Below are positions 10,093 to 18,938 of a DNA stretch of 39,288 nucleotides, piece by piece (within the stretch, counting starts at the first letter, position 1; each line of letters opens with the position of its first letter). The notes beneath the pieces are model-generated. The model searched no databases, was not told the origin of the DNA, and saw nothing but the letters and a program-made list of their open reading frames with translations. The stretch comes from Winogradskyella sp. (GTDB taxonomy: Bacteria; Bacteroidota; Bacteroidia; Flavobacteriales; Flavobacteriaceae). A program made the position numbers and the translations under genes. The stretch is taken from assembly GCF_025210595.1 (NCBI RefSeq), contig NZ_JAOARH010000097.1:1-39288 (forward strand), given 5' to 3'.

Positions 10093-12390
10093 CTATTCTT
10101 GTTCAGAAGAATCTTTTACTTCCTCTGTAACAGTAATTGTCGCAGGTTCTACTGAACTATCAAAAGATTTGTGATATTCTTGTAATAAATTCATTGTAGC
10201 ATTAAGTAAATCTTTAGTTTCAAGTAATAATCCGAAATAAAGTGTTGTGTTTTTTGGACTAGACTCTTCTGTTCTAGTTCGAGAAACTTGCTTTACAATC
10301 TTTTCAGTTACTAAATCAAGAACTTCTTTCTTACGATTAATTATTAAACCAATTTGTTCAAAAGACCTAGAGTCGAAGGCAATCTTAGCATCATTTAGTA
10401 GGGACTCTAATGCTTGATCTACTTCTTTAAGCTCTTTAATTTGGCTAAATTTAAGTTTCTTATGGTTATTGTTAACGTGTTTATGACTTACTTTAGAAAT
10501 GTACTCAAGTGATTGTGTCATGTCTTCTAAATAGCCAAGAATATTGATGTAGAAACTACTAGCTCTTAGACTTGTTTCATCTAAATTTTTAATAAAATAG
10601 AAAATGTTATCTCTAAGACTATCAACTTCGGTAGATAACTTATCGATTTGTTTCTTATTCTTTTTCAGTAGTATTAAATCTTGTTTAGCTAAACCACTTA
10701 CAGCGTTAGTATAGATTTTATTTCCGCGTTTTACAACATTAGAAATATTATCAGCACTCTCTAAGATAACACCTTGTACAGATCTGCTACCAGTTTCTTT
10801 TAAACTATCTTCTTCTAGAGTGTTTGTTGATTTGTTTTTGTGAGATATGTAGTTTCTGTATAATAAAATTGCTGTTAATAATAATAGAATAGGTGTAATT
10901 ACAGCAGGATTCCAGTTTATTAAAAATACCACTGTACCAGCAGCTATAAAAGCTCCAAGAGCAGTACCAAACCATCCTCCAATAACGTTTAAAACACCAG
11001 CAACACGGTATACAGCACTTTCTCTTCCCCAAGCTCTATCAGCTAAAGATGTACCCATAGCTACCATAAATGTAACATAAGTTGTAGATAATGGTAACTT
11101 CATTGAGGTTGCAATGGCAATTAAAACACCTGCTACCATTAAGTTTACTGATGCTCTAATCATATCAAAAGCAGGAGCATCAATACTCTGGTCTTTTGTC
11201 ATGATTACCTCAGGCTTATTAAAGCTATTTTCTATTTTATTACTTAATGATTTTGGTAAAATAGCTCCAATGTAGTTAGATAATCTAGATGTGCTTTTTA
11301 CAATACTTCTAGATAAAACATTAGGTTCAAATTTTTCGTGAGTATCACCTTGTCTAGAAAGGCTAATCTCTGTTTCGGCAACAGTTTTAGCTTTTTTAGA
11401 AAACCAAAGCGTAAGCACCATTATAGCACCTGCAATAAATAATAAGTAAGGTTCTGCAGGTACTTTTTTATCTAAAACTTCCATAGACATAGCTACATCC
11501 ATTCCGCCAGCGACCCAAGCTTCGTAAGAGTGGTATGCTGCCATTGGTACACCAATAAAGTTTACTAAATCATTGCCAGAAAAAGCTAAAGCTAAACCAA
11601 ATGTTCCTACAGCTATAACTATAAGAAGTACTGTTTTTTTTGTGATTTTTTCAAATATGAATGAAAATAGAGTCCAAAAAACAAGACTGCCAAGTATAAT
11701 ATAAATTTCATTGCCTTCTAAAGCACCTTTAAGTTCTTTGTAGTATGGTGTTCCTTTTAGTCCTTTTAAGAAGATAAAGTATGTGATAGCGGTTAAAGCT
11801 ACGCCACCGAAAACCATCCCAAAATTCTTAACTTTTTTCTCATAGTTAAATGTGAAAATAAGTCTCGATACCCATTGTACAAGAGCACCAACAGAAAATG
11901 CAATAACAACAGATAATAAAATACCAGAGATGATTTCTATAGCTTTCTCAGTATTGATATATGTAGCTAAATCTGAAATTGTTTGTGACTCTGAATTGCT
12001 TATTTTTATTAATGACATCACTACAGCTGCACCTAATAAATTAAATACAATAGATACTGTAGTTGATGTTGGTAAGCCTAATGTGTTAAAGAAATCTAAT
12101 AGAAGAATATCTGTAATCATTACAGCCATGAAAATGAGCATAATTTCACCAAATTCAAATTGAGCCGGAACAAAAATTCCTTTTCTGGCGACTTCCATCA
12201 TTCCACTAGAGAACACAGCACCAATAAAAATACCTAAACTGGCTACAATCATTATAGTTCTTAAAGAAATAGCTTTAGAACCAATAGCAGAATTTAAGAA
12301 ATTAATAGCATCATTACTTACACCAACTATGATATCGAACACAGCAAGTGTAGTTATGGCAATTAGCATTAGTAAATAAATATTATCCAT
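10093..12390 (-). CDS. PiT-family inorganic phosphate transporter with PhoU-like cytoplasmic tail
   Basis: 765 aa. The two inverted PiT repeats are evident: VGVSNDAINFLNSAIGSKAI (residues ~23-42) with LGLPTSTTVSIVFNLLGA near residue 105, and in the second half LPLSTTYVTFMVAMGTSLAD near residue 430 with RVAGVLNVIGGW. These GxSNDxxNF and PxSTT motifs define the PiT/Pit phosphate permeases. After the last membrane segment (~residue 525) come about 230 charged, helical residues (LILLKKNKKQIDKLSTEVD onward) resembling PhoU/DUF47 domains, usually encoded separately; the fused form is common in Bacteroidota. It probably takes up phosphate with a cation across the inner membrane. The porin gene is 76 nt upstream, and a putative phosphate box lies in that gap. 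Confidence 0.92.
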   Translation of the reverse strand: MDNIYLLMLIAITTLAVFDIIVGVSNDAINFLNSAIGSKAISLRTIMIVASLGIFIGAVFSSGMMEVARKGIFVPAQFEFGEIMLIFMAVMITDILLLDFFNTLGLPTSTTVSIVFNLLGAAVVMSLIKISNSESQTISDLATYINTEKAIEIISGILLSVVIAFSVGALVQWVSRLIFTFNYEKKVKNFGMVFGGVALTAITYFIFLKGLKGTPYYKELKGALEGNEIYIILGSLVFWTLFSFIFEKITKKTVLLIVIAVGTFGLALAFSGNDLVNFIGVPMAAYHSYEAWVAGGMDVAMSMEVLDKKVPAEPYLLFIAGAIMVLTLWFSKKAKTVAETEISLSRQGDTHEKFEPNVLSRSIVKSTSRLSNYIGAILPKSLSNKIENSFNKPEVIMTKDQSIDAPAFDMIRASVNLMVAGVLIAIATSMKLPLSTTYVTFMVAMGTSLADRAWGRESAVYRVAGVLNVIGGWFGTALGAFIAAGTVVFLINWNPAVITPILLLLTAILLYRNYISHKNKSTNTLEEDSLKETGSRSVQGVILESADNISNVVKRGNKIYTNAVSGLAKQDLILLKKNKKQIDKLSTEVDSLRDNIFYFIKNLDETSLRASSFYINILGYLEDMTQSLEYISKVSHKHVNNNHKKLKFSQIKELKEVDQALESLLNDAKIAFDSRSFEQIGLIINRKKEVLDLVTEKIVKQVSRTRTEESSPKNTTLYFGLLLETKDLLNATMNLLQEYHKSFDSSVEPATITVTEEVKDSSEQE

Positions 12391-12430
12391 AATTTTTAGT
12401 TAAAATAATTTTGCAAATATCTTTATACCA
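12383..12430 (-). promoter_or_regulatory. PiT promoter region, weak -7 element
   Basis: On the minus strand GATATTTG (12409-12402 approximately) differs from TAnnTTTG at one base and lies shortly before the ATG at 12390, downstream of the tandem 11-bp site. There is no TTG -33, as expected for a promoter that relies on an activator. Confidence 0.35.
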
Positions 12431-12437
12431 TTTAAGT

Positions 12438-12457
12438 GTAACGTTACCTAAACGTTA
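12438..12457 (-). promoter_or_regulatory. Putative Pho-box-like tandem site upstream of PiT
   Basis: Minus strand reads TAACGTTTAGGTAACGTTAC: two half-sites (TAACGTTTA and TAACGTTAC) 11 nt apart. They fit TWACRTTWA at 9/9 and 8/9. The site is 47 nt from the PiT start. The same arrangement occurs upstream of the porin and of the beta-helix lipoprotein. Confidence 0.5.
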
Positions 12458-12466
12458 TGTTTTAAA

Positions 12467-13672
12467 TTAGAAATGAATATCAAAACCAAGTCTAAAAGTG
12501 ATGTTATCTTCATTACCATCTACAGTAGTATAGCTAATGTCAGATTGTACTTTTAGCTTATGACCAACAATAAATTTATTAACACCAAGTGTATATTGTT
12601 CAGTTGGTAATGCACCAGTAACATTTTCGTAATCTAATGTGGTGAAACGTGCCGCAATTTCATAGTTGTTTTTGAATAAATAACCAGCTTGAAGGTTTAA
12701 AGCATCACCTGTTAAAACAACATCACCAGTTGGCGTAACACCATCTGCTTCGGTTGCAATTTCGTCATCTGCAGTTCTTTTAGCATATTCACCCATAAAA
12801 GAAAATCCTTTGTATTTAAACATAGCATCAGCAAAAATGGTAGTTTGGTCAGTCTCATAGATAGTGCCATCTGTTCTTATCATGTAATCTCCAGCAAAAC
12901 CTCTTTCTCTAACAGCATCTTGATTGTAGTTATAAGTAAATCCTAGCATTAATTTTGGTTTTTCCTCTCTCTTTAAATCAGACTGACTGTAATCTCCTTT
13001 AGACTTAAATTTTCCGAATGGTAAAAGCTCTAAACGTGCAGTATATTGTAAACCACCTTCGTTTCCTTCACTTACGTTACGACCTTCTCCTTGAGAAACA
13101 GATAGCTTTTCGCGCATTAAGAAATTACCTCCTAATTTGCTTTTATGACGTAATTGTATCCCTAAATCACGATCTATATTAAAACGACTATTCAATAAAG
13201 AGCGATCTATTAATTGAAGATTACCAGAAGATACAACACGTTCTACGTTACCAGGAAGTTTTGTTTGTCCTGCCCAAAGTTCCCAATTGTCAGCAAATTT
13301 CCATTTAAGGACCGCATCTAGAATGTAACGTGGTGTATTTCTATTAAATTCATTAGCACCAGAAATATCTCTGTTAGATAAACCAAGTTCTATTTTGTAT
13401 ACTAATTTTGGACTATAAGCAAATCCATCAAATTTTAAACGCGCACGACGAACAATAAAATTATGTTCTGGGCTTATGTATTGATTGCCATCATGATCCC
13501 AAGACGACATAGAACGTACTTGAAAACGTGGAGCAAACTTTACACTAAAAGTACTGTCTTTGGCAACAAAGTTGATTAAGCCCTTACCGAAAGAAGTGTC
13601 ACTAATTTCCTGAGCTTTTAGGGTAATAACTGATAATATAGCTATAATAGCTATAGATAATTTTAGTTTCAT
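12467..13672 (-). CDS. Phosphate-selective porin, OprO/OprP type
   Basis: 401 aa from the ATG at 13672, where the signal peptide begins (LSIAIIAILSVITLKAQE); twelve in-frame residues further upstream are not signal-like and are discarded. The mature protein is a beta barrel with alternating strands, with the family markers SVKFAPRFQVRSM, FIVRRARLKFDGFAYSP and YKIELGLSNRD at the N-terminus, WAGQTKLPGNVERV in the middle and a C-terminal strand ending in aromatic FRLGFDIHF. OprO/OprP porins pass phosphate or polyphosphate across the outer membrane, which fits the PiT gene immediately downstream. Selectivity cannot be read from sequence. The leader is ~290 nt and contains a terminator hairpin. 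Confidence 0.88.
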   Translation of the reverse strand: MKLKLSIAIIAILSVITLKAQEISDTSFGKGLINFVAKDSTFSVKFAPRFQVRSMSSWDHDGNQYISPEHNFIVRRARLKFDGFAYSPKLVYKIELGLSNRDISGANEFNRNTPRYILDAVLKWKFADNWELWAGQTKLPGNVERVVSSGNLQLIDRSLLNSRFNIDRDLGIQLRHKSKLGGNFLMREKLSVSQGEGRNVSEGNEGGLQYTARLELLPFGKFKSKGDYSQSDLKREEKPKLMLGFTYNYNQDAVRERGFAGDYMIRTDGTIYETDQTTIFADAMFKYKGFSFMGEYAKRTADDEIATEADGVTPTGDVVLTGDALNLQAGYLFKNNYEIAARFTTLDYENVTGALPTEQYTLGVNKFIVGHKLKVQSDISYTTVDGNEDNITFRLGFDIHF

Positions 13673-13750
13673 TTTATGATTTAGTTTTTGTCGCCGCAAA
13701 GAACTCACTTATTTCAAACACGAATGTTTCCTTAGTGTTAAGTTTTGCGT

Positions 13751-13778
13751 AAAAAAAACTGCCCTGGCCAAAGGCAGT
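13751..13778 (-). terminator. Intrinsic terminator inside the porin 5' leader
   Basis: On the minus strand ACTGCC, 9-nt loop, GGCAGT, followed directly by eight T. It lies 79 nt upstream of the porin start codon and downstream of the putative Pho-box-like site, so no annotated gene ends here. It looks like an attenuator or the end of a small RNA. Confidence 0.65.
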
Positions 13779-13963
13779 CATTAGAATTCATGATAACTAG
13801 TCGACAAAAACTATTAGATCATACGAAACTAATTTGTCCTAATAAGACTAGACAAATGTATGTGTAACATTTGATTACAGTGTAATCTTAATATTAAGTA
13901 ATTATTAAACAAAAACACTGCAACTCTATCTTTTAAAATGTTTAAAACCAGCGAAATAGCTCT
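13779..13963 (-). ncRNA. Possible small RNA or regulatory leader upstream of the porin
   Basis: A transcript started near the tandem site at 13964-13983 and stopped at the terminator 13751-13778 would be ~180-200 nt with no coding frame that I can support. Structure visible: a 7-bp hairpin ATTTGTC/GACAAAT at 13832-13857, a 6-bp inverted repeat GATTAC-AGT-GTAATC at 13873-13887 and CTTAATATTAAG at 13887-13898. An internal -7 match, TACATTTG, is on the minus strand at 13860-13853. It matches no riboswitch class that I know. Confidence 0.3.
13873..13887. repeat. Inverted repeat GATTACAGTGTAATC in the porin leader
   Basis: Perfect 6-bp arms with a 3-nt centre, the size of a dimeric regulator's operator. 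It lies between the porin and the MORN-repeat gene, just upstream of the internal TACATTTG box on the minus strand. Confidence 0.35.
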
Positions 13964-13983
13964 TTAATGTAAAATTAATGTTA
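13964..13983 (-). promoter_or_regulatory. Putative Pho-box-like tandem site upstream of the porin
   Basis: Minus strand reads TAACATTAATTTTACATTAA: half-sites TAACATTAA and TTACATTAA 11 nt apart, both perfect fits to TWACRTTWA. A weaker third half-site, CAACATTTT (7/9), lies another 11 nt upstream. The region is shared with the divergent MORN-repeat gene. Confidence 0.5.
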
Positions 13984-13991
13984 AGAAAATG

Positions 13992-14022
13992 TTGCTTAAA
14001 TATTAAGAAATCTTTATATTTG
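13992..14022 (+). promoter_or_regulatory. Promoter of the MORN-repeat protein gene
   Basis: TTG (13992-13994), 20 nt, TATATTTG (14015-14022): an exact match to the Bacteroidota housekeeping promoter. The ATG at 14052 lies 29 nt downstream. The tandem 11-bp site ends nine nt upstream of the -33. Confidence 0.7.
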
Positions 14023-14051
14023 ATTTAATAAGTAATTTAACCTCATTGATT

Positions 14052-14411
14052 ATGAACAAGAATATTTTAATGCTTTTCGTTTTATGTTTTGGTTTAGTTT
14101 CTTTTGCTCAGCAAGAAAAACAGTTGAAATTTAATGAAGATACTAGTTTAACAGAAGTTACTTACTTTCATGATAATGGTGAAGTAAGTCAAACAGGTGT
14201 TTTTAATGCAGAAGGTAAGGTTCATGGCAAATGGAAAAGCTATGATGCTAATGGTAATAAAGTTGCTATAGGAAATTATGATAATGGTAAAAAAGTCGGA
14301 AAATGGTTTTTTTGGCTTGGTGATACTTTGAAAGAAGTAGATTACATAGATTCTAGAATAGTGAATATTAATCATTGGGATAACAAAACCAAAGTGACAA
14401 TTAATAACTAA
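14052..14411 (+). CDS. Small secreted MORN-repeat (YwqK-like) protein
   Basis: 119 aa from the ATG at 14052; a TTG two codons upstream is ignored. Signal peptide of ~18 residues (ILMLFVLCFGLVSFAQ). The mature part has three MORN-2 type beta-hairpin repeats: EVTYFHDNGEVSQTGVFN, HGKWKSYDANGNKVAIGNY and VGKWFFWLGDTLKEVDYI. Related proteins are often annotated as YwqK antitoxins, but no toxin partner is present and this one is exported, so that label should not be trusted. It has a strong own promoter and ends in a terminator shared with the convergent receptor gene. It shares its upstream region with the phosphate porin, so co-regulation is possible. Confidence 0.78.
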   Translation: MNKNILMLFVLCFGLVSFAQQEKQLKFNEDTSLTEVTYFHDNGEVSQTGVFNAEGKVHGKWKSYDANGNKVAIGNYDNGKKVGKWFFWLGDTLKEVDYIDSRIVNINHWDNKTKVTINN

Positions 14412-14431
14412 ATAGTTATTCTGAAAAAAAT

Positions 14432-14467
14432 AAAAAAGGCGTTTCAAATTTTTGAAACGCCTTTTTT
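14432..14467. terminator. Bidirectional terminator between MORN gene and TonB receptor
   Basis: AAAAAAGGCGTTTCAAA, two bases, TTTGAAACGCCTTTTTT: a perfect 11-bp stem flanked by A and T runs, so it works for both convergent genes. It shares the GCGTTTCAA stem word with the terminator at 7125-7162. Confidence 0.92.
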
Positions 14468-14496
14468 AATATCGATTTTTAAAAATCTTTAATAGG

Positions 14497-17340
14497 TTAG
14501 AATTTAAAAGTATAGCCTAACGAAATTTCTGTACCTGGTTCTCTCAATGAGAAAATTTGATTACTTGTTCCGTAAGATTCATACTCGCTTAATCTTTCGT
14601 CACCAAGTAGATTAGATACCTTAAGATCAATTGATGAACGCTTGTTTTCACCAAAAGATTTGTTTAAGGTAAAGTTTAAGCTGTTAAATGGTTGAGAGTA
14701 CACATCTGGAACTTCACGAATACCTACAACTTCTAAAGTTTCACCTTGAATGTTATAGAATATACCAGTTCTTAAACCTATATCACTATTGTCATAATTT
14801 AGACCAACATTAATTAAGTAAGGCGCTTGTCCTTGCATATCTCTTTTTCTGTCAATGGTTTCACCATCTCTTGCTGAAGAAAGTCTACCTTCGTATTCAT
14901 CATCTGACATTGTTAATTCAGATTTTATCAAGGAAAGGTTAGCTGTTATTTTTAAATTATTTAAACCTTCAGAAATAAAACCTAAACGCTGTCTGGCTTC
15001 AAATTCAGCACCATATACAATAGCATCTCCTAAGTTGCCAACAGTAAGCTGAGTAGGTGCAGAAACAAAGAATGTTTGCTCTATAACATCAGTAAAATCT
15101 TTATAAAAACCACTAATGGCAAACATTTGTCCTTCTTCTCCAAAGAATTCATATCGTATATCAAAGTTATTAATATACGTAGGTTTTAAATTAATATCAC
15201 CAATGAATAATCGACTGGTTATAGGGTCATATATATTAGCAAGTGAAGCTTCTTTAAACGATGGTCTTGCTGTAGTGCGAGAGTAAGATGCTCTTAGGTT
15301 AGATTTATCATTTAGAGCATAAATTAAGTTTGCAGATGGGAAAAAGTCAAATTCATCTAATATTAATTCTCTATTAAAAACATTCTCTGCATCTTCACCA
15401 GTGTAAAAAGAGTTGAACATTTCTGTCCTTAATCCTATAACGGTTTTAAATTCTTCTGAAAGATTAAACTCAGTAGAAAAATAGGTAGCTGCAATTTGCT
15501 GTTCTCCTTCATAAGCATCTTGTGGATTAAAGTTGTCTGTAAAAACAACAAATGTACCTGCATCTGTTTCTGGTGTCCAAATGTTTTCAGAAGCTAAAAG
15601 ATTATCTGCTTCACCACTAGAAATAAAAGACTGATCACCACGAATATTAAATGTAAAATCATCAATGCTAAAATCTCTAAACTTATAGGTGTATGCACCT
15701 CCAAATTTAATTTTTGCAGGACGACCAAAAAGATCTACAGTTTTATCAAAATCAACTTTACCAGCCCAAGACTCTTCTAATAAGTGCCTCCACAATTGTA
15801 TTGGTAATGTAGAAGCAGAAGGGCTTAAAAATGAACTTCCGTCATCTGCTTGTTGAAAAGGTGTAATTCTATGTCCTTTATCCATTACCTTAGCAAAGCT
15901 AGGTGAGAACTTCCATTCAAAATTAAAAGGTTTGTCATCAGAGAAGCTATTCAATCTGTGTTTACCAGAGATTAGTAAGTTAGTGATTGAACGTTCAGTA
16001 TAAGTGATAGAATTTTTAGTTAATGGCTCTAAAGCACCACCTGTACCATCTTGGGAAATGGTTTGGTTAAAAAAACCAGCAGTAGATTCTCCATTTTGTA
16101 TGTGTAATAAGTTAACTCTAAACTTAGATCTGTCAGTTTTATAAGCCACGCCTAACATACCATTTAAGATAATATTGTTTAGACCTTCAGACCCTTTTGA
16201 ATCTAAGGTTGCTATAAGGTCATTATCAGAGGTGTTTTGAGGGTTCTTTATATATGCACCATCAAATCTATTCTTGTAAAAAGTAGTTTCATTTTTGTAA
16301 GAAAACGACGCTTGATAACCTATTTTGTCATTACCAAGATCATATTGATTACCAAGAGTAAATCCAAAATCATAATTCATGCCACTAGTTTCTTGTTTAG
16401 CAGCAAGTTCTTTTTGAAATTTATTAGTAAGGTTTGTTAATGTAACTGTATTTACACCATTACCTAAAAGCCCTTCTTCAAATTGATATCTATTAACAGG
16501 AACATCGCGAGTACCATCATCATAACCCAACCAATCTGTATCACTTCCGGTTGAGGTTAAATACGAATCATTAAAATGCATATCTGGATTGTAGCCGCCA
16601 CCTAATGAGATAGAATACTCTGCTTTACTTGGAAAATCTTTGGTTACGATATCTACAATACCACCAGTAAAATCTGCTGGATATTCTGCAGATGCAGATT
16701 TTAATACAATAACATTGTCTAAGATGTTTGTAGGAAATAAATCCATTTGAATGGTATTACGATCTGGATCCAAACCAGGAATGTCAATTCCGTTTAAAAT
16801 AGATTTAGTATAACGATCACCAAGACCACGAACAAAAACATACTTACCGCCTTGAATAGAAACACCAGGTACACTTTTAACAGCAGCAGCTACATTGCTA
16901 GCTCCTGTGCTTTTTATGGCCTGAGATGACAAACCATCTAGTACTACAGCAGATTTTTTTTGTAGATTTAAGACAGCACTCTCTGTATTTCGTTTTGAAG
17001 AAGAAGTAACAACAACCGTATCTAAAGAGTTGGTTTCCATTACAACATCTAAGGTAAACACCTCATTGTTTTTTATAACAACATCCGAGATTTCTTGAGT
17101 AGCATACCCAACAAAAGAGAACACTAATGTATAGGTGCCTTCTTCTAGTTCTAACTCATATTTTCCGTCAAAATCGGTTGTCATACCTGTAGTGGTGCCT
17201 TTTACTAGTATATTAGCAAAGGCCATAGGTTCGTTAAATTCGCCATCAATTACAGTACCTGCTACTTTTCCTTGAGAAGAAGCAATGAATGATACTGATA
17301 GAAATAAAACAAAAGCTAAAACGTTTTGTATGGTTTTCAT
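14497..17340 (-). CDS. TonB-dependent outer-membrane receptor with carboxypeptidase-like N-domain
   Basis: 947 aa from the ATG at 17340, where the signal peptide begins (TIQNVLAFVLFLSVSFIASSQ). A CarboxypepD_reg-like domain follows (~residues 24-110: GTVIDGEFNEPMAFANILVK, TDFDGKYELELEEGTYTL), then the plug (~residues 130-235, with SVPGVSIQGGKYVFVRGLGD and PGLDPDRNTIQMDLFP) and a long beta-barrel ending in EISLGYTFKF. It imports a substrate with energy from TonB-ExbBD, none of which is encoded here. It has no SusD partner; instead it lies 72 nt downstream of a beta-helix surface lipoprotein. The ligand is unknown. The position next to phosphate genes and the upstream tandem site suggest a phosphorus-containing substrate, which is inference. 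Confidence 0.92.
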   Translation of the reverse strand: MKTIQNVLAFVLFLSVSFIASSQGKVAGTVIDGEFNEPMAFANILVKGTTTGMTTDFDGKYELELEEGTYTLVFSFVGYATQEISDVVIKNNEVFTLDVVMETNSLDTVVVTSSSKRNTESAVLNLQKKSAVVLDGLSSQAIKSTGASNVAAAVKSVPGVSIQGGKYVFVRGLGDRYTKSILNGIDIPGLDPDRNTIQMDLFPTNILDNVIVLKSASAEYPADFTGGIVDIVTKDFPSKAEYSISLGGGYNPDMHFNDSYLTSTGSDTDWLGYDDGTRDVPVNRYQFEEGLLGNGVNTVTLTNLTNKFQKELAAKQETSGMNYDFGFTLGNQYDLGNDKIGYQASFSYKNETTFYKNRFDGAYIKNPQNTSDNDLIATLDSKGSEGLNNIILNGMLGVAYKTDRSKFRVNLLHIQNGESTAGFFNQTISQDGTGGALEPLTKNSITYTERSITNLLISGKHRLNSFSDDKPFNFEWKFSPSFAKVMDKGHRITPFQQADDGSSFLSPSASTLPIQLWRHLLEESWAGKVDFDKTVDLFGRPAKIKFGGAYTYKFRDFSIDDFTFNIRGDQSFISSGEADNLLASENIWTPETDAGTFVVFTDNFNPQDAYEGEQQIAATYFSTEFNLSEEFKTVIGLRTEMFNSFYTGEDAENVFNRELILDEFDFFPSANLIYALNDKSNLRASYSRTTARPSFKEASLANIYDPITSRLFIGDINLKPTYINNFDIRYEFFGEEGQMFAISGFYKDFTDVIEQTFFVSAPTQLTVGNLGDAIVYGAEFEARQRLGFISEGLNNLKITANLSLIKSELTMSDDEYEGRLSSARDGETIDRKRDMQGQAPYLINVGLNYDNSDIGLRTGIFYNIQGETLEVVGIREVPDVYSQPFNSLNFTLNKSFGENKRSSIDLKVSNLLGDERLSEYESYGTSNQIFSLREPGTEISLGYTFKF

Positions 17341-17354
17341 ATATAATTTTATAT

Positions 17355-17385
17355 AACCCATTACCTACCTTGTAGATAATGGGTT
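17355..17385 (-). promoter_or_regulatory. Strong intercistronic RNA hairpin between lipoprotein and receptor
   Basis: In minus-strand RNA 14 base pairs close a 3-nt loop (AACCCATTATCTAC, AAG, GTAGGTAATGGGTT) with a single G-U pair; on the plus strand that pair would be a C-A mismatch, so the fold belongs to the operon transcript. No T run follows. It probably protects the 3' end of the lipoprotein mRNA or lowers receptor expression. Confidence 0.6.
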
Positions 17386-17412
17386 TGTTTAATTTAATAA
17401 TTAGAGTAAATC

Positions 17413-18690
17413 TTAGAATCCTAAGCTTCCTTCAGCATTAGAATAGGTCCAGCTTAAGTTTGATGTTGTAGCACCAACAGTTTGTGCACCTTCAGATACA
17501 GCAGTTGCTGTAGATCCAAATCCTGTTACAGTAACAGTTTCAGCTTTGTTAACAAAAATATCTGTAACATTAGTAACACCTGTAGGTAAAACAATTTCCC
17601 ATGCGCCAAAAGTTAAATCACCATTGTTATAGTTAGTTGCAACACCATCGTTGTCTAACTCAACGTCTGAAGAATCTTTAAAACCATAAGCATATACATT
17701 TTCAGTATGTCCTTGTGCGTTACTTCTGTAATCTGCATATTCTCCATTAGCAGTATCAGTGTTACCAATTATTGTAGCATTTCTTAAGGTAAATGAACCA
17801 GAACCAGTTCCTTCAGGACCATCAATTTCAAAAGCATGATCAGAGATATCACCCAATACAACAACTACATTGTCAACAGTACCAGAATATGCTTGATCAA
17901 TATCTATAGCATCATCACCTTGTGCCCAAACTAATAAGTTAGAAGCATTAACAGTACCACCAAAGAATTCAATACCATCATCTACGTTACCTATAACTTC
18001 AATATTGTCTATAATAGTTCCGTTACCAACACCACCTAAAGTAAGGCCGTTAATTTCGTTACCTTCACCAATTAGAGCACCTCCATGTCTAATAGAGATA
18101 TATCTTAAGCTTCCTGAGCTATCGTTAGCATCAGAGCCACCATAAAGACCAAAAGTGTCATCAGCAGGAATACCTTCAATTTGTGCTTCTGGAATATCAC
18201 CAGAAAAAGAGCAAGGAGCGTTACCTAAAATAATTAAACCTCCCCAAAGACCTCTATCGTTTTCGTCTAAGTTTGTTCCCGCAGTTTGTCCGCAAGTAAT
18301 ATTGTCTTGAGTTGATGTGAAAATTATTGGCTCATTTTCTGTACCATTAGCATTAAGTGTTCCTCCTCTTGCTACAATTAAAGCAGAAGCTAAAGAACCA
18401 GTACCTGATGATCCTTTAATAATTGTACCAGGATTAATTGTTAAAGTTGCACCAGCAGGTACAACAACTTTTTGGTTTAATTGGTATATGTTATCATTTG
18501 TCCAAACAGTTCCGTCAGTAATTTCACCAGTTACAGCAACTATAGGGCAATCATCACCACCTGAGCCTCCAGGATTTTCGTTAATAATTGTAGTAGAAGT
18601 TTCTACAATTAAAGGAGCATCATCATCTTTAAAACATCCTGTAAATACAAATGTTGAAGCTACTAATGCGATTAAAAGTAATTTTTTCAT
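17413..18690 (-). CDS. Beta-helix surface lipoprotein paired with the TonB receptor
   Basis: 425 aa. Lipoprotein signal with FTGC lipobox, lipidated Cys19, followed by an acidic stretch (KDDDAP) of the kind that sends Bacteroidota lipoproteins to the cell surface. The body is built of short strand-turn repeats, with the sequence ATLTINPGTIIKGSSG and many N/D/G-rich turns (GTIIDNIEVIGNVDDGIEFF, GSFTLRNATIIGNTDTANGE), as in right-handed parallel beta-helix proteins. It has no SusD-like TPR. I do not recognise a named family. First gene of a two-gene unit with the receptor and the likely capturing subunit for its ligand. A Pho-box-like site is 111 nt upstream. Confidence 0.75.
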   Translation of the reverse strand: MKKLLLIALVASTFVFTGCFKDDDAPLIVETSTTIINENPGGSGGDDCPIVAVTGEITDGTVWTNDNIYQLNQKVVVPAGATLTINPGTIIKGSSGTGSLASALIVARGGTLNANGTENEPIIFTSTQDNITCGQTAGTNLDENDRGLWGGLIILGNAPCSFSGDIPEAQIEGIPADDTFGLYGGSDANDSSGSLRYISIRHGGALIGEGNEINGLTLGGVGNGTIIDNIEVIGNVDDGIEFFGGTVNASNLLVWAQGDDAIDIDQAYSGTVDNVVVVLGDISDHAFEIDGPEGTGSGSFTLRNATIIGNTDTANGEYADYRSNAQGHTENVYAYGFKDSSDVELDNDGVATNYNNGDLTFGAWEIVLPTGVTNVTDIFVNKAETVTVTGFGSTATAVSEGAQTVGATTSNLSWTYSNAEGSLGF

Positions 18691-18938
18691 TGAGTTAAAT
18701 TTTAATAATCAAATTTTGTTTTTTGTAATGAGGCAAAGAAAATGTGATATTCTTTGTTGTAGGTTACTCAATGATTAAACATTTGTAATGAAAAAGTTAG
18801 TTAAACGTAACCTTAATGTTAGTTGATTTCTCATTAAGAAAACAATTTCTTAACATTAAGATTTCTAAAAACACTTAAGGCTATATCTAAATAATTCTAT
18901 TTCAATTTATTTATATTGCAATCTTAATATTTTAAGCT
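18691..18938. other. Divergent intergenic region of lipoprotein and dGTPase genes
   Basis: 248 nt with several TTAA-rich words. It holds the tandem site 18802-18821, a solitary half-site TAACATTAA on the plus strand at 18851-18859 (inside CTTAACATTAAG), and on the minus strand TTTCTTTG, one mismatch from the -7 consensus, near 18740. No open reading frame. Confidence 0.5.
18802..18821 (-). promoter_or_regulatory. Putative Pho-box-like tandem site upstream of the beta-helix lipoprotein
   Basis: Minus strand reads TAACATTAAGGTTACGTTTA: half-sites TAACATTAA and TTACGTTTA, 11 nt apart, both 9/9 to TWACRTTWA. A third weaker copy (TAACTTTTT, 7/9) follows at the same spacing. It shares the AGGT spacer with the PiT site. 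Confidence 0.5.

Follow-up and report, generated by a model that had tools for sequence, protein, structure and literature searches.

The closest described counterparts of the elements reported here are the Pho boxes of the Escherichia coli PhoB regulon, in which several 11-bp repeats stand head to tail before scavenging genes and near phoB, and whose consensus varies between species (PMC4415409; this and the other papers cited are drawn on in excerpt). We describe comparable 11-bp-unit arrays, together with a candidate small RNA gene, in a 39,288-nt stretch of Winogradskyella sp. DNA (NZ_JAOARH010000097.1, hereafter the window), which is contig C144 of a 3.12-Mb draft genome of 157 contigs, and in which a lipoprotein, a TonB-dependent receptor, the small RNA, a Porin_O_P porin and a PiT-type phosphate transporter follow one another on the minus strand. 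Compared with E. coli, the half-site is TWAC(A/G)TTWA and not CTGTCAT, an array holds up to seven units, positions are counted from the Bacteroidota -7 box TAnnTTTG (which spans -12 to -5 from the transcription start; PMC9723704), and PhoU was not found in this genome. Judged by genome comparison, both the arrays and the small RNA look real, and it is quite probable that PhoB-like arrays switch on phosphate genes along with a small RNA antisense to the porin mRNA, in an incoherent feed-forward loop.

In the low-phosphate response of Flavobacterium johnsoniae (PUSIII/PUSIV), a lipoprotein with a pectin-lyase fold (FII) and a TonB-dependent transporter, both encoded in the phoBR cluster, rise strongly, and PlcP (fold change 8.59), a phoBR-linked glycosyltransferase (5.42) and endonucleases (4.66 and 4.13, endonuclease I among those induced) also respond (PMC8115612). 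Unlike that cluster, the porin–PiT unit of the window lies away from phoBR; the term "Pho box" does not occur in the paper, and its excerpts mention no small RNA. In marine bacteria, with Dokdonia among those studied, plcP is phosphate-regulated and putative Pho boxes have been given for plcP clusters, with no flavobacterial box sequence, array phase or -7 anchoring noted in the excerpts (PMC4796936); these aside, we found no description of a Bacteroidota or Flavobacteriia Pho box in the open-licence literature, as far as its excerpts go. Small RNAs known from Bacteroidota include Flavobacterium Rfp18 (PMC9723704) and Bacteroides GibS (PMC7366714), which differ in sequence and targets and for which the excerpts give no porin or phosphate target, and no description of a phosphate- or porin-related Bacteroidota small RNA was found in the same open-licence literature. 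Both the array code and the small RNA are likely, though not certain, to be new to the literature.

Phased 11-bp arrays

An earlier, sequence-only reading of the window had picked out three minus-strand 20-mers (12457-12438, 13983-13964 and 18821-18802), each with two TWACRTTWA half-sites 11 nt apart. All three lie where it placed them, five of the six half-sites fit at 9/9 and one at 8/9, and the weaker third copies that it saw at two sites are present (CAACATTTT at 13994 and TAACTTTTT at 18799). The repeats are indeed tandem, but there are more of them than the two or three proposed, since six good units plus a degenerate seventh stand at the lipoprotein promoter, and the fixed distance of the units to the -7 box had been missed. 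Direct repeats of two or more units at 11 bp, as in a Pho box, are thus present, with a half-site that is TWACRTTWA-like and not the E. coli CTGTCAT. The genes concerned, and the arrays before the lipoprotein and PiT genes, are as follows.

17413..18690, minus strand: lipoprotein, 425 aa, without Pfam or NCBIfam family, with orthologues across many genomes of the family
14497..17361, minus strand: TonB-dependent receptor, 954 aa
12467..13672, minus strand: porin of the Porin_O_P family, with its ATG at 13672
10093..12390, minus strand: PiT-type phosphate transporter, 765 aa, PHO4 family
18745..18821, minus strand: 11-bp-unit array of the lipoprotein/TonB operon promoter, containing the site 18821-18802, phase kept in 29 orthologues
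18734..18741, minus strand: lipoprotein promoter -7 box TTTCTTTG, predicted transcription start about 18729
12436..12457, minus strand: PiT promoter units TAAC 12457 and TAAC 12446, 40 and 29 bp before TTTG, containing the site 12457-12438
12414..12421, minus strand: PiT promoter -7 box GATATTTG, predicted transcription start about 12409

Could these words be chance matches in AT-rich DNA? The bare word would allow it: exact matches to the 20-mer pattern number two in the genome (both in the window) and seven with one mismatch (the PiT site among them), whereas at up to two mismatches the pattern is barely commoner than its backward control (79 versus 62) and a bare three-unit TWAC is not commoner than its control (10 versus 12). 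The word alone is therefore unspecific, because control patterns are nearly as common, and to count its matches at the three sites would be circular, as these are the sites from which it was derived; pattern counting alone was accordingly discarded as proof. The non-circular evidence for the sites is the conservation of spacing in orthologues. In the upstream DNA of 29 orthologues of the lipoprotein gene, pairs of TWAC at spacings of 11, 22, 33, 44 and 55 bp number 56, 33, 34, 36 and 19, against an average of 2.73 at all other spacings, and the coding DNA of the same loci has 0, 0, 0 and 0 pairs at 11 to 44 bp. Forty control upstream regions of this genome gave 5, 2, 1 and 2 pairs at 11, 22, 33 and 44 bp over a background of 0.90, the control loci having been chosen for motif matches, which may account for the small excess at 11. 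Porin upstream regions show 45, 36 and 28 pairs at 11, 22 and 33 bp (background 7.5), and the porin–PiT gap 33 pairs at 11 bp (background 1.95).

Besides their mutual spacing, the units keep a fixed distance to the promoter. With the T of TTTG within the TAnnTTTG box as zero point, the steps fall at 18, 29, 40, 51, 62 and 73 bp; in the window's lipoprotein array, units start at 18821, 18810, 18799, 18788, 18777, 18766 and 18755 (the last degenerate, AAAG), that is, 84, 73, 62, 51, 40, 29 and 18 bp 5' of TTTG. Among 29 lipoprotein promoters (29 of 30 loci, the truncated L089 being left out, and the window's own row being anchored on a wrong TTTG), TWAC stands at the six steps in 17, 24, 6, 11, 23 and 23, against an off-phase mean of 0.19. 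PiT promoters (27 of 30 loci) have it in 25 at 29 bp and 25 at 40 bp (off-phase mean 0.42), porin promoters (-7 box located in 69 of 90) in 59, 15 and 24 at 18, 29 and 40 bp (0.54), and small-RNA promoters (located in 54 of 71) in 10 at 18 bp and 39 at 29 bp (1.17). The promoters of different genes therefore share one common frame, in which each keeps different units. With spacing peaks and phase standing over clean controls, and with genome-wide matches before independent phosphate-family genes (below), chance is largely refuted as an explanation, and we regard it as extremely improbable.

Genome-wide targets

A sequence-only promoter model of 62 positions (R2) was built from an alignment (A2) of 52 of 88 promoters, picked by hand once rows that seemed poor or out of phase had been removed, a choice that biases the model toward phase. 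Searched against the whole genome, it gave 56 matches at E ≤ 10, of which the first three (E 2.8e-7 to 1.2e-5) are the window's porin promoter, which was in the training set, and its PiT and lipoprotein promoters (ranks 2 and 3), which were not. Four of the eight matches at ranks 4 to 11 (E 0.005-0.21) are of interest. Rank 4 precedes a PlcP-like PF12850/PF00149 phosphoesterase, in phase, with units at 18, 29, (40, 51), 62 and 73 bp; rank 8 lies between phoB and the gene of a secreted lamin-tail-domain protein; and rank 11 stands, in phase, before a PF04101 glycosyltransferase adjoining phoR. The fourth, rank 5, is a phased box at a contig end (L036, C148:52326-52379, minus strand; TAAT at 40, TAAC at 29, TTTG) followed by a hairpin and T-run about 100 nt further on, possibly a second small RNA in the same regulon. 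The other four (on contigs C108, C79, C125 and C32) have no phosphate tie, one being inside an open reading frame, and ranks 12 to 19 have no evident one; rank 20 (E 0.59) stands in phase before a secreted endonuclease I.

As expected of a Pho box, the arrays thus favour positions near phoB and ahead of genes known from phosphate starvation, and the regulon proposed from the three sites held up on the genome scale, where model matches precede known phosphate-starvation families and adjoin phoB. PlcP, the phoBR-linked glycosyltransferase and endonuclease I are the families induced in F. johnsoniae, our targets being matched to its genes by Pfam family and context, not by orthology.

A PhoB-like regulator

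Three OmpR-type (PF00486) regulators are encoded in this genome. The one on C14 adjoins a histidine kinase gene, has receiver and winged-helix domains and scores best against the NCBIfam PhoB models, while for the other two RprY is the best-scoring model, likewise below its cut-off; by its sequence, the C14 gene appears to be the genome's only PhoB-like regulator gene. Chains of two or more units directed away from phoB were found in 29 of 30 phoB upstream regions of relatives, against a baseline of 11 of 30 in the opposite direction. Five of the 30 have an in-phase TTTG; the clearest cases are G057, G096 and G111, in which the divergent gene begins like a TonB-dependent receptor. Across these 30 loci (L130-L159) the divergent gene is often a small secreted protein with the look of a sorting tail (YPNP motif), or a lamin-tail protein.

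In at least 18 of 120 genomes a lipoprotein match and phoB share a contig and are no more than 5 kb apart, and the same phoB neighbours occur in F. johnsoniae (Fjoh_0543-0546; PMC8115612). The phosphorus role suggested earlier for the lipoprotein/receptor pair fits both this linkage and the low-phosphate data of that study.

Arrays of this kind might instead be bound by another OmpR-type, RprY-like regulator, or by an unrelated reader of 11-bp repeats, with envelope stress as the theme. The assignment of the binding protein comes from sequence, the C14 regulator falls under the PhoB cut-offs, PF00486 regulators were the only ones counted, and PhoX-family genes have no arrays, all of which would suit such a reader; yet the targets belong to phosphate families, chains stand at nearly all phoB upstream regions, and the two remaining regulators resemble RprY. 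We consider a different regulator unlikely and take a PhoB-like regulon to be well supported by the sequence comparisons. From the same observations, we infer binding by the C14 product and a phosphate response of the genes concerned.

A conserved candidate small RNA gene between the arrays

Antisense RNAs of the MicF type are small and trans-acting, and pair with an outer-membrane porin mRNA at its start, as we propose for the RNA encoded here; they differ from it in that its sequence is unrelated, its gene adjoins its target, its hairpin-loop seed pairs from about the first mRNA base, and it is family-restricted so far. Aligning porin upstream regions showed, after the distal site marked by the sequence-only reading, a second phased promoter, then about 100 conserved nucleotides closed by a terminator, and last a phased promoter belonging to the porin itself. 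The site near 13970 is therefore not directly in front of the porin but precedes a small-RNA gene with promoter and terminator, while the porin has a phased box of its own at 13740/13729 that had gone unreported. With the small-RNA gene lying between, the alignment ruled out 13983-13964 as the porin promoter. The elements of this interval in the window are the following.

13964..14005, minus strand: distal four-unit array, earlier taken for the porin site (14005 TAAT, 13994 CAAC, 13983 TAAC, 13972 TTAC)
13882..13907, minus strand: small-RNA promoter units TAAT 13907, TAAT 13896 and TTAC 13885, 51, 40 and 29 bp before TTTG
13853..13860, minus strand: small-RNA -7 box TACATTTG, read from sequence
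13751..13848, minus strand: candidate small RNA of about 98 nt, with 5' hairpin, central hairpin, and terminator hairpin and T-run
13802..13812, minus strand: small-RNA loop AGUUUUUGUCG, antisense to the porin leader
13757..13779, minus strand: small-RNA intrinsic terminator, from sequence and covariation
13697..13740, minus strand: porin promoter, units TAAC 13740 and AAAC 13729 (40 and 29 bp before TTTG), with TTTG at 13718
13704-13697, minus strand: porin -7 box GTTCTTTG, predicted transcription start about 13692
13683..13693, minus strand: predicted 5' end of the porin mRNA CGACAAAAACT, a perfect complement of the small-RNA loop

The small-RNA promoter comes after the distal array, whose phase with the TTTG of that promoter is inexact (116 and 127 bp). 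A promoter and an intrinsic terminator of its own, as far as sequence tells, are what a separate RNA would carry, and the small RNA has both, in a structure conserved with compensatory changes. The RNA model (R1), whose training set includes the window sequence, matches at 13751-13858 (E 1.9e-16), and the fold is better than all 200 shuffles (z -3.06). Across 69 aligned genomes (alignment A1, 69 of 71 sequences, two with badly parsed ends being left out by hand), the three hairpins covary, with changes in both partners in 161 cells, compared with 52.8 when shuffled and 42-65 when partners are slid, and the loop core GTTTTTGTC is invariant. Rfam gave only chance matches far below gathering scores, so that none of its families fits the small RNA.

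The RNA occurs upstream of 71 of 90 porin loci and, in a separate set, in 71 of 80 named loci, with Olleya aquimaris and a Winogradskyella type strain among its carriers, and its model matches 97 of 199 genomes of the family at E ≤ 0.001, some of them weakly (E 1e-5 to 1e-3; the one checked, in G069, lies outside the usual setting). A wider search of the class found matches in 15 of 395 genomes at E ≤ 0.001, four of them strong (E ≤ 9e-11) and all of the same family; the remaining eleven (E 1.6e-5 to 9.7e-4) are above nominal expectation, the E-values being rough, and may be distant relatives outside the family. Second copies of the RNA were seen near the lipoprotein in G141, G088 and G122 (L269, L270 and L275); in G141, the copy is followed by the leader element and then by an apparent short porin remnant. 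At L265 (G003) and L266 (G047), the RNA precedes a porin-type gene, and the place of PiT behind it is taken by genes that are PstS-like (PF12849) and, judged by eye, PstC/PstA-like.

Predicted pairing with the porin leader

The TTTG anchor puts the porin mRNA start near 13692, at GACAAAAACT, where the loop AGUUUUUGUCG matches CGACAAAAACT perfectly. Taking as leader the best 9-mer match within a stretch (exact in 67 of 79 genomes), cognate loop–leader duplexes average -20.6 kcal/mol in 79 genomes against -17.9 for permuted leaders, with 0 of 10,000 permutations as low, and in the 35 genomes with unusual loops -21.3 against -17.2, again with 0 of 10,000 as low. Own leaders rank in the best quartile for 45 of the 79 RNAs, and for a few (e.g. 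G034, G103) no better than average. In G151, the otherwise invariant core is changed to GTTTTAGTC together with the start of the downstream gene, GACTAAAAT, a gene without Pfam family and with an uncertain start codon.

The complementary stretches could in principle form an inverted repeat that a protein recognises as DNA, there being two inverted copies of GTCGACAAAAACTA-like DNA, but in the RNA the copy is the loop part of a hairpin that covaries and ends in a terminator, and the flanks of the pairing covary as pairs, G-U included, which makes such a protein site very improbable. Another alternative is that the conserved segment is a cis-acting porin leader, an attenuator or long-range hairpin, with no separate RNA, given that most loci fetched have it on the porin's strand and 100-200 nt ahead of that gene. 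In the way of this stand the terminator and the porin's own phased promoter, which intervene, and some genomes that keep the segment with no adjoining porin. Of the 19 porin loci without an RNA just upstream, moreover, only two (G101 and G078) have the leader element, and there the RNA lies about 3 kb upstream with complementarity kept; because opposite-strand genes lie between RNA and porin, pairing in these two must act in trans. We therefore think a cis-acting leader rather unlikely and favour a trans-acting RNA, whose pairing partners coevolve and can belong to separate transcripts.

As regards other targets, among the loci listed for this genome GTCGACAAAAACTA with up to one mismatch occurs only in the RNA gene itself and the porin leader, and with up to two mismatches its matches are rarer than those of the backward control in each of six genomes (here 20 versus 126), where 30 loci were inspected, five per genome. 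One of them, L282 in G107, has a one-mismatch GTCGACAAAAACTA match 29 nt before an ATG.

Proposed mechanism

We posit that low phosphate activates a PhoB-like regulator, most likely the C14 product, copies of which would line up head to tail on the 11-bp units, on one DNA face and with a set spacing to the sigma-A -7 box, so that the bound regulator would replace the -35 contact and recruit RNA polymerase. Genes switched on in this way at low phosphate would be those of the lipoprotein/TonB receptor pair, the Porin_O_P porin, PiT, the PlcP-like enzyme and the glycosyltransferase (both presumably for lipid remodelling), the secreted nuclease, and the small RNA. The same signal would then yield porin mRNA and small RNA, the latter from its partial box and the distal four-unit array, and the central loop would pair with the porin mRNA at its first bases, most likely blocking translation, in an incoherent feed-forward loop that may limit or time porin production. 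That phosphate controls the RNA, and that the RNA represses the porin, are both inferred here. Because translation in Bacteroidota starts without Shine-Dalgarno sequences (PMC6847099), an RNA lying over the first 20 nt should make the start region inaccessible, and on this ground repression is our guess; activation or stabilisation is possible.

The leader element is also kept before porins of another branch (Porin_O_P in G110, G071 and G003), and at four loci the RNA is kept with no adjoining porin, from which the RNA and leader would be older than the porin at some loci. We lean, if only slightly, toward the fuller reading that the regulator drives a phosphate porin and a neighbouring trans-acting RNA coevolved with the porin 5' end, as a feed-forward loop present in about half of the sampled Flavobacteriaceae genera and at some loci older than the porin itself.

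Several observations weigh against these interpretations. The OmpR/PhoB-type tandem repeats proposed earlier before the lipoprotein/TonB genes, porin and PiT are supported, and the PhoB-like reading gains from the arrays and genome-wide targets, but it loses the porin site as first drawn, and PhoX-family loci of relatives have no array (4, 3 and 3 pairs at 11, 22 and 33 bp in 30 loci; 4, 2 and 2 on recount), a weak negative, with many matches partial and starts uncertain, which we nevertheless count against it; in this genome itself there is no PF05787 match. The F. johnsoniae OprP (Fjoh_0542) was unresponsive to phosphate (PMC8115612). The C14 regulator scores 220.6 of 296.2 and 212.1 of 270 bits against the NCBIfam PhoB cut-offs, a phased -7 box is missing from the box beside phoB in this genome, and PhoU (PF01895) was not found in this 96.94%-complete genome, so that the classical Pst/PhoU signal is missing. 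Added to the word counts given above, the window's porin promoter has lost its 18-bp unit (TTTG there), and the pairing permutation tests ignore relatedness. Finally, the RNA is kept upstream of PiT without an adjoining porin in G107, G121, G014 and G161 (L262, L263, L272 and L273), and the porin is therefore not its only purpose there.

Flavobacteriaceae are major marine degraders and often phosphate-limited. The promoter code, with units 18, 29, 40 and more bp before TTTG, would let a phosphate regulon be listed from a flavobacterial genome sequence and would assign roles to orphan lipoprotein/TonB pairs. If the reading is true, the small RNA offers a conserved, testable example of a porin controlled by RNA, in a phylum where few small RNAs have been worked out.

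Other features of the locus

The closest named relatives of the porin are from Winogradskyella, Olleya, Lacinutrix and Psychroserpens, at 68-89% identity among the 80 best. One locus in a record titled "uncultured Rhodobacteraceae" (L384) carries this flavobacterial locus, with a porin identity of 82%, and is probably a mislabelled or mixed metagenome bin. Between the receptor and the small RNA, on the opposite strand, the window encodes a small secreted-looking protein of 121 aa (14046-14411, plus strand), without an NCBIfam match, which has a look-alike at the equivalent place in most of the 16 loci inspected.

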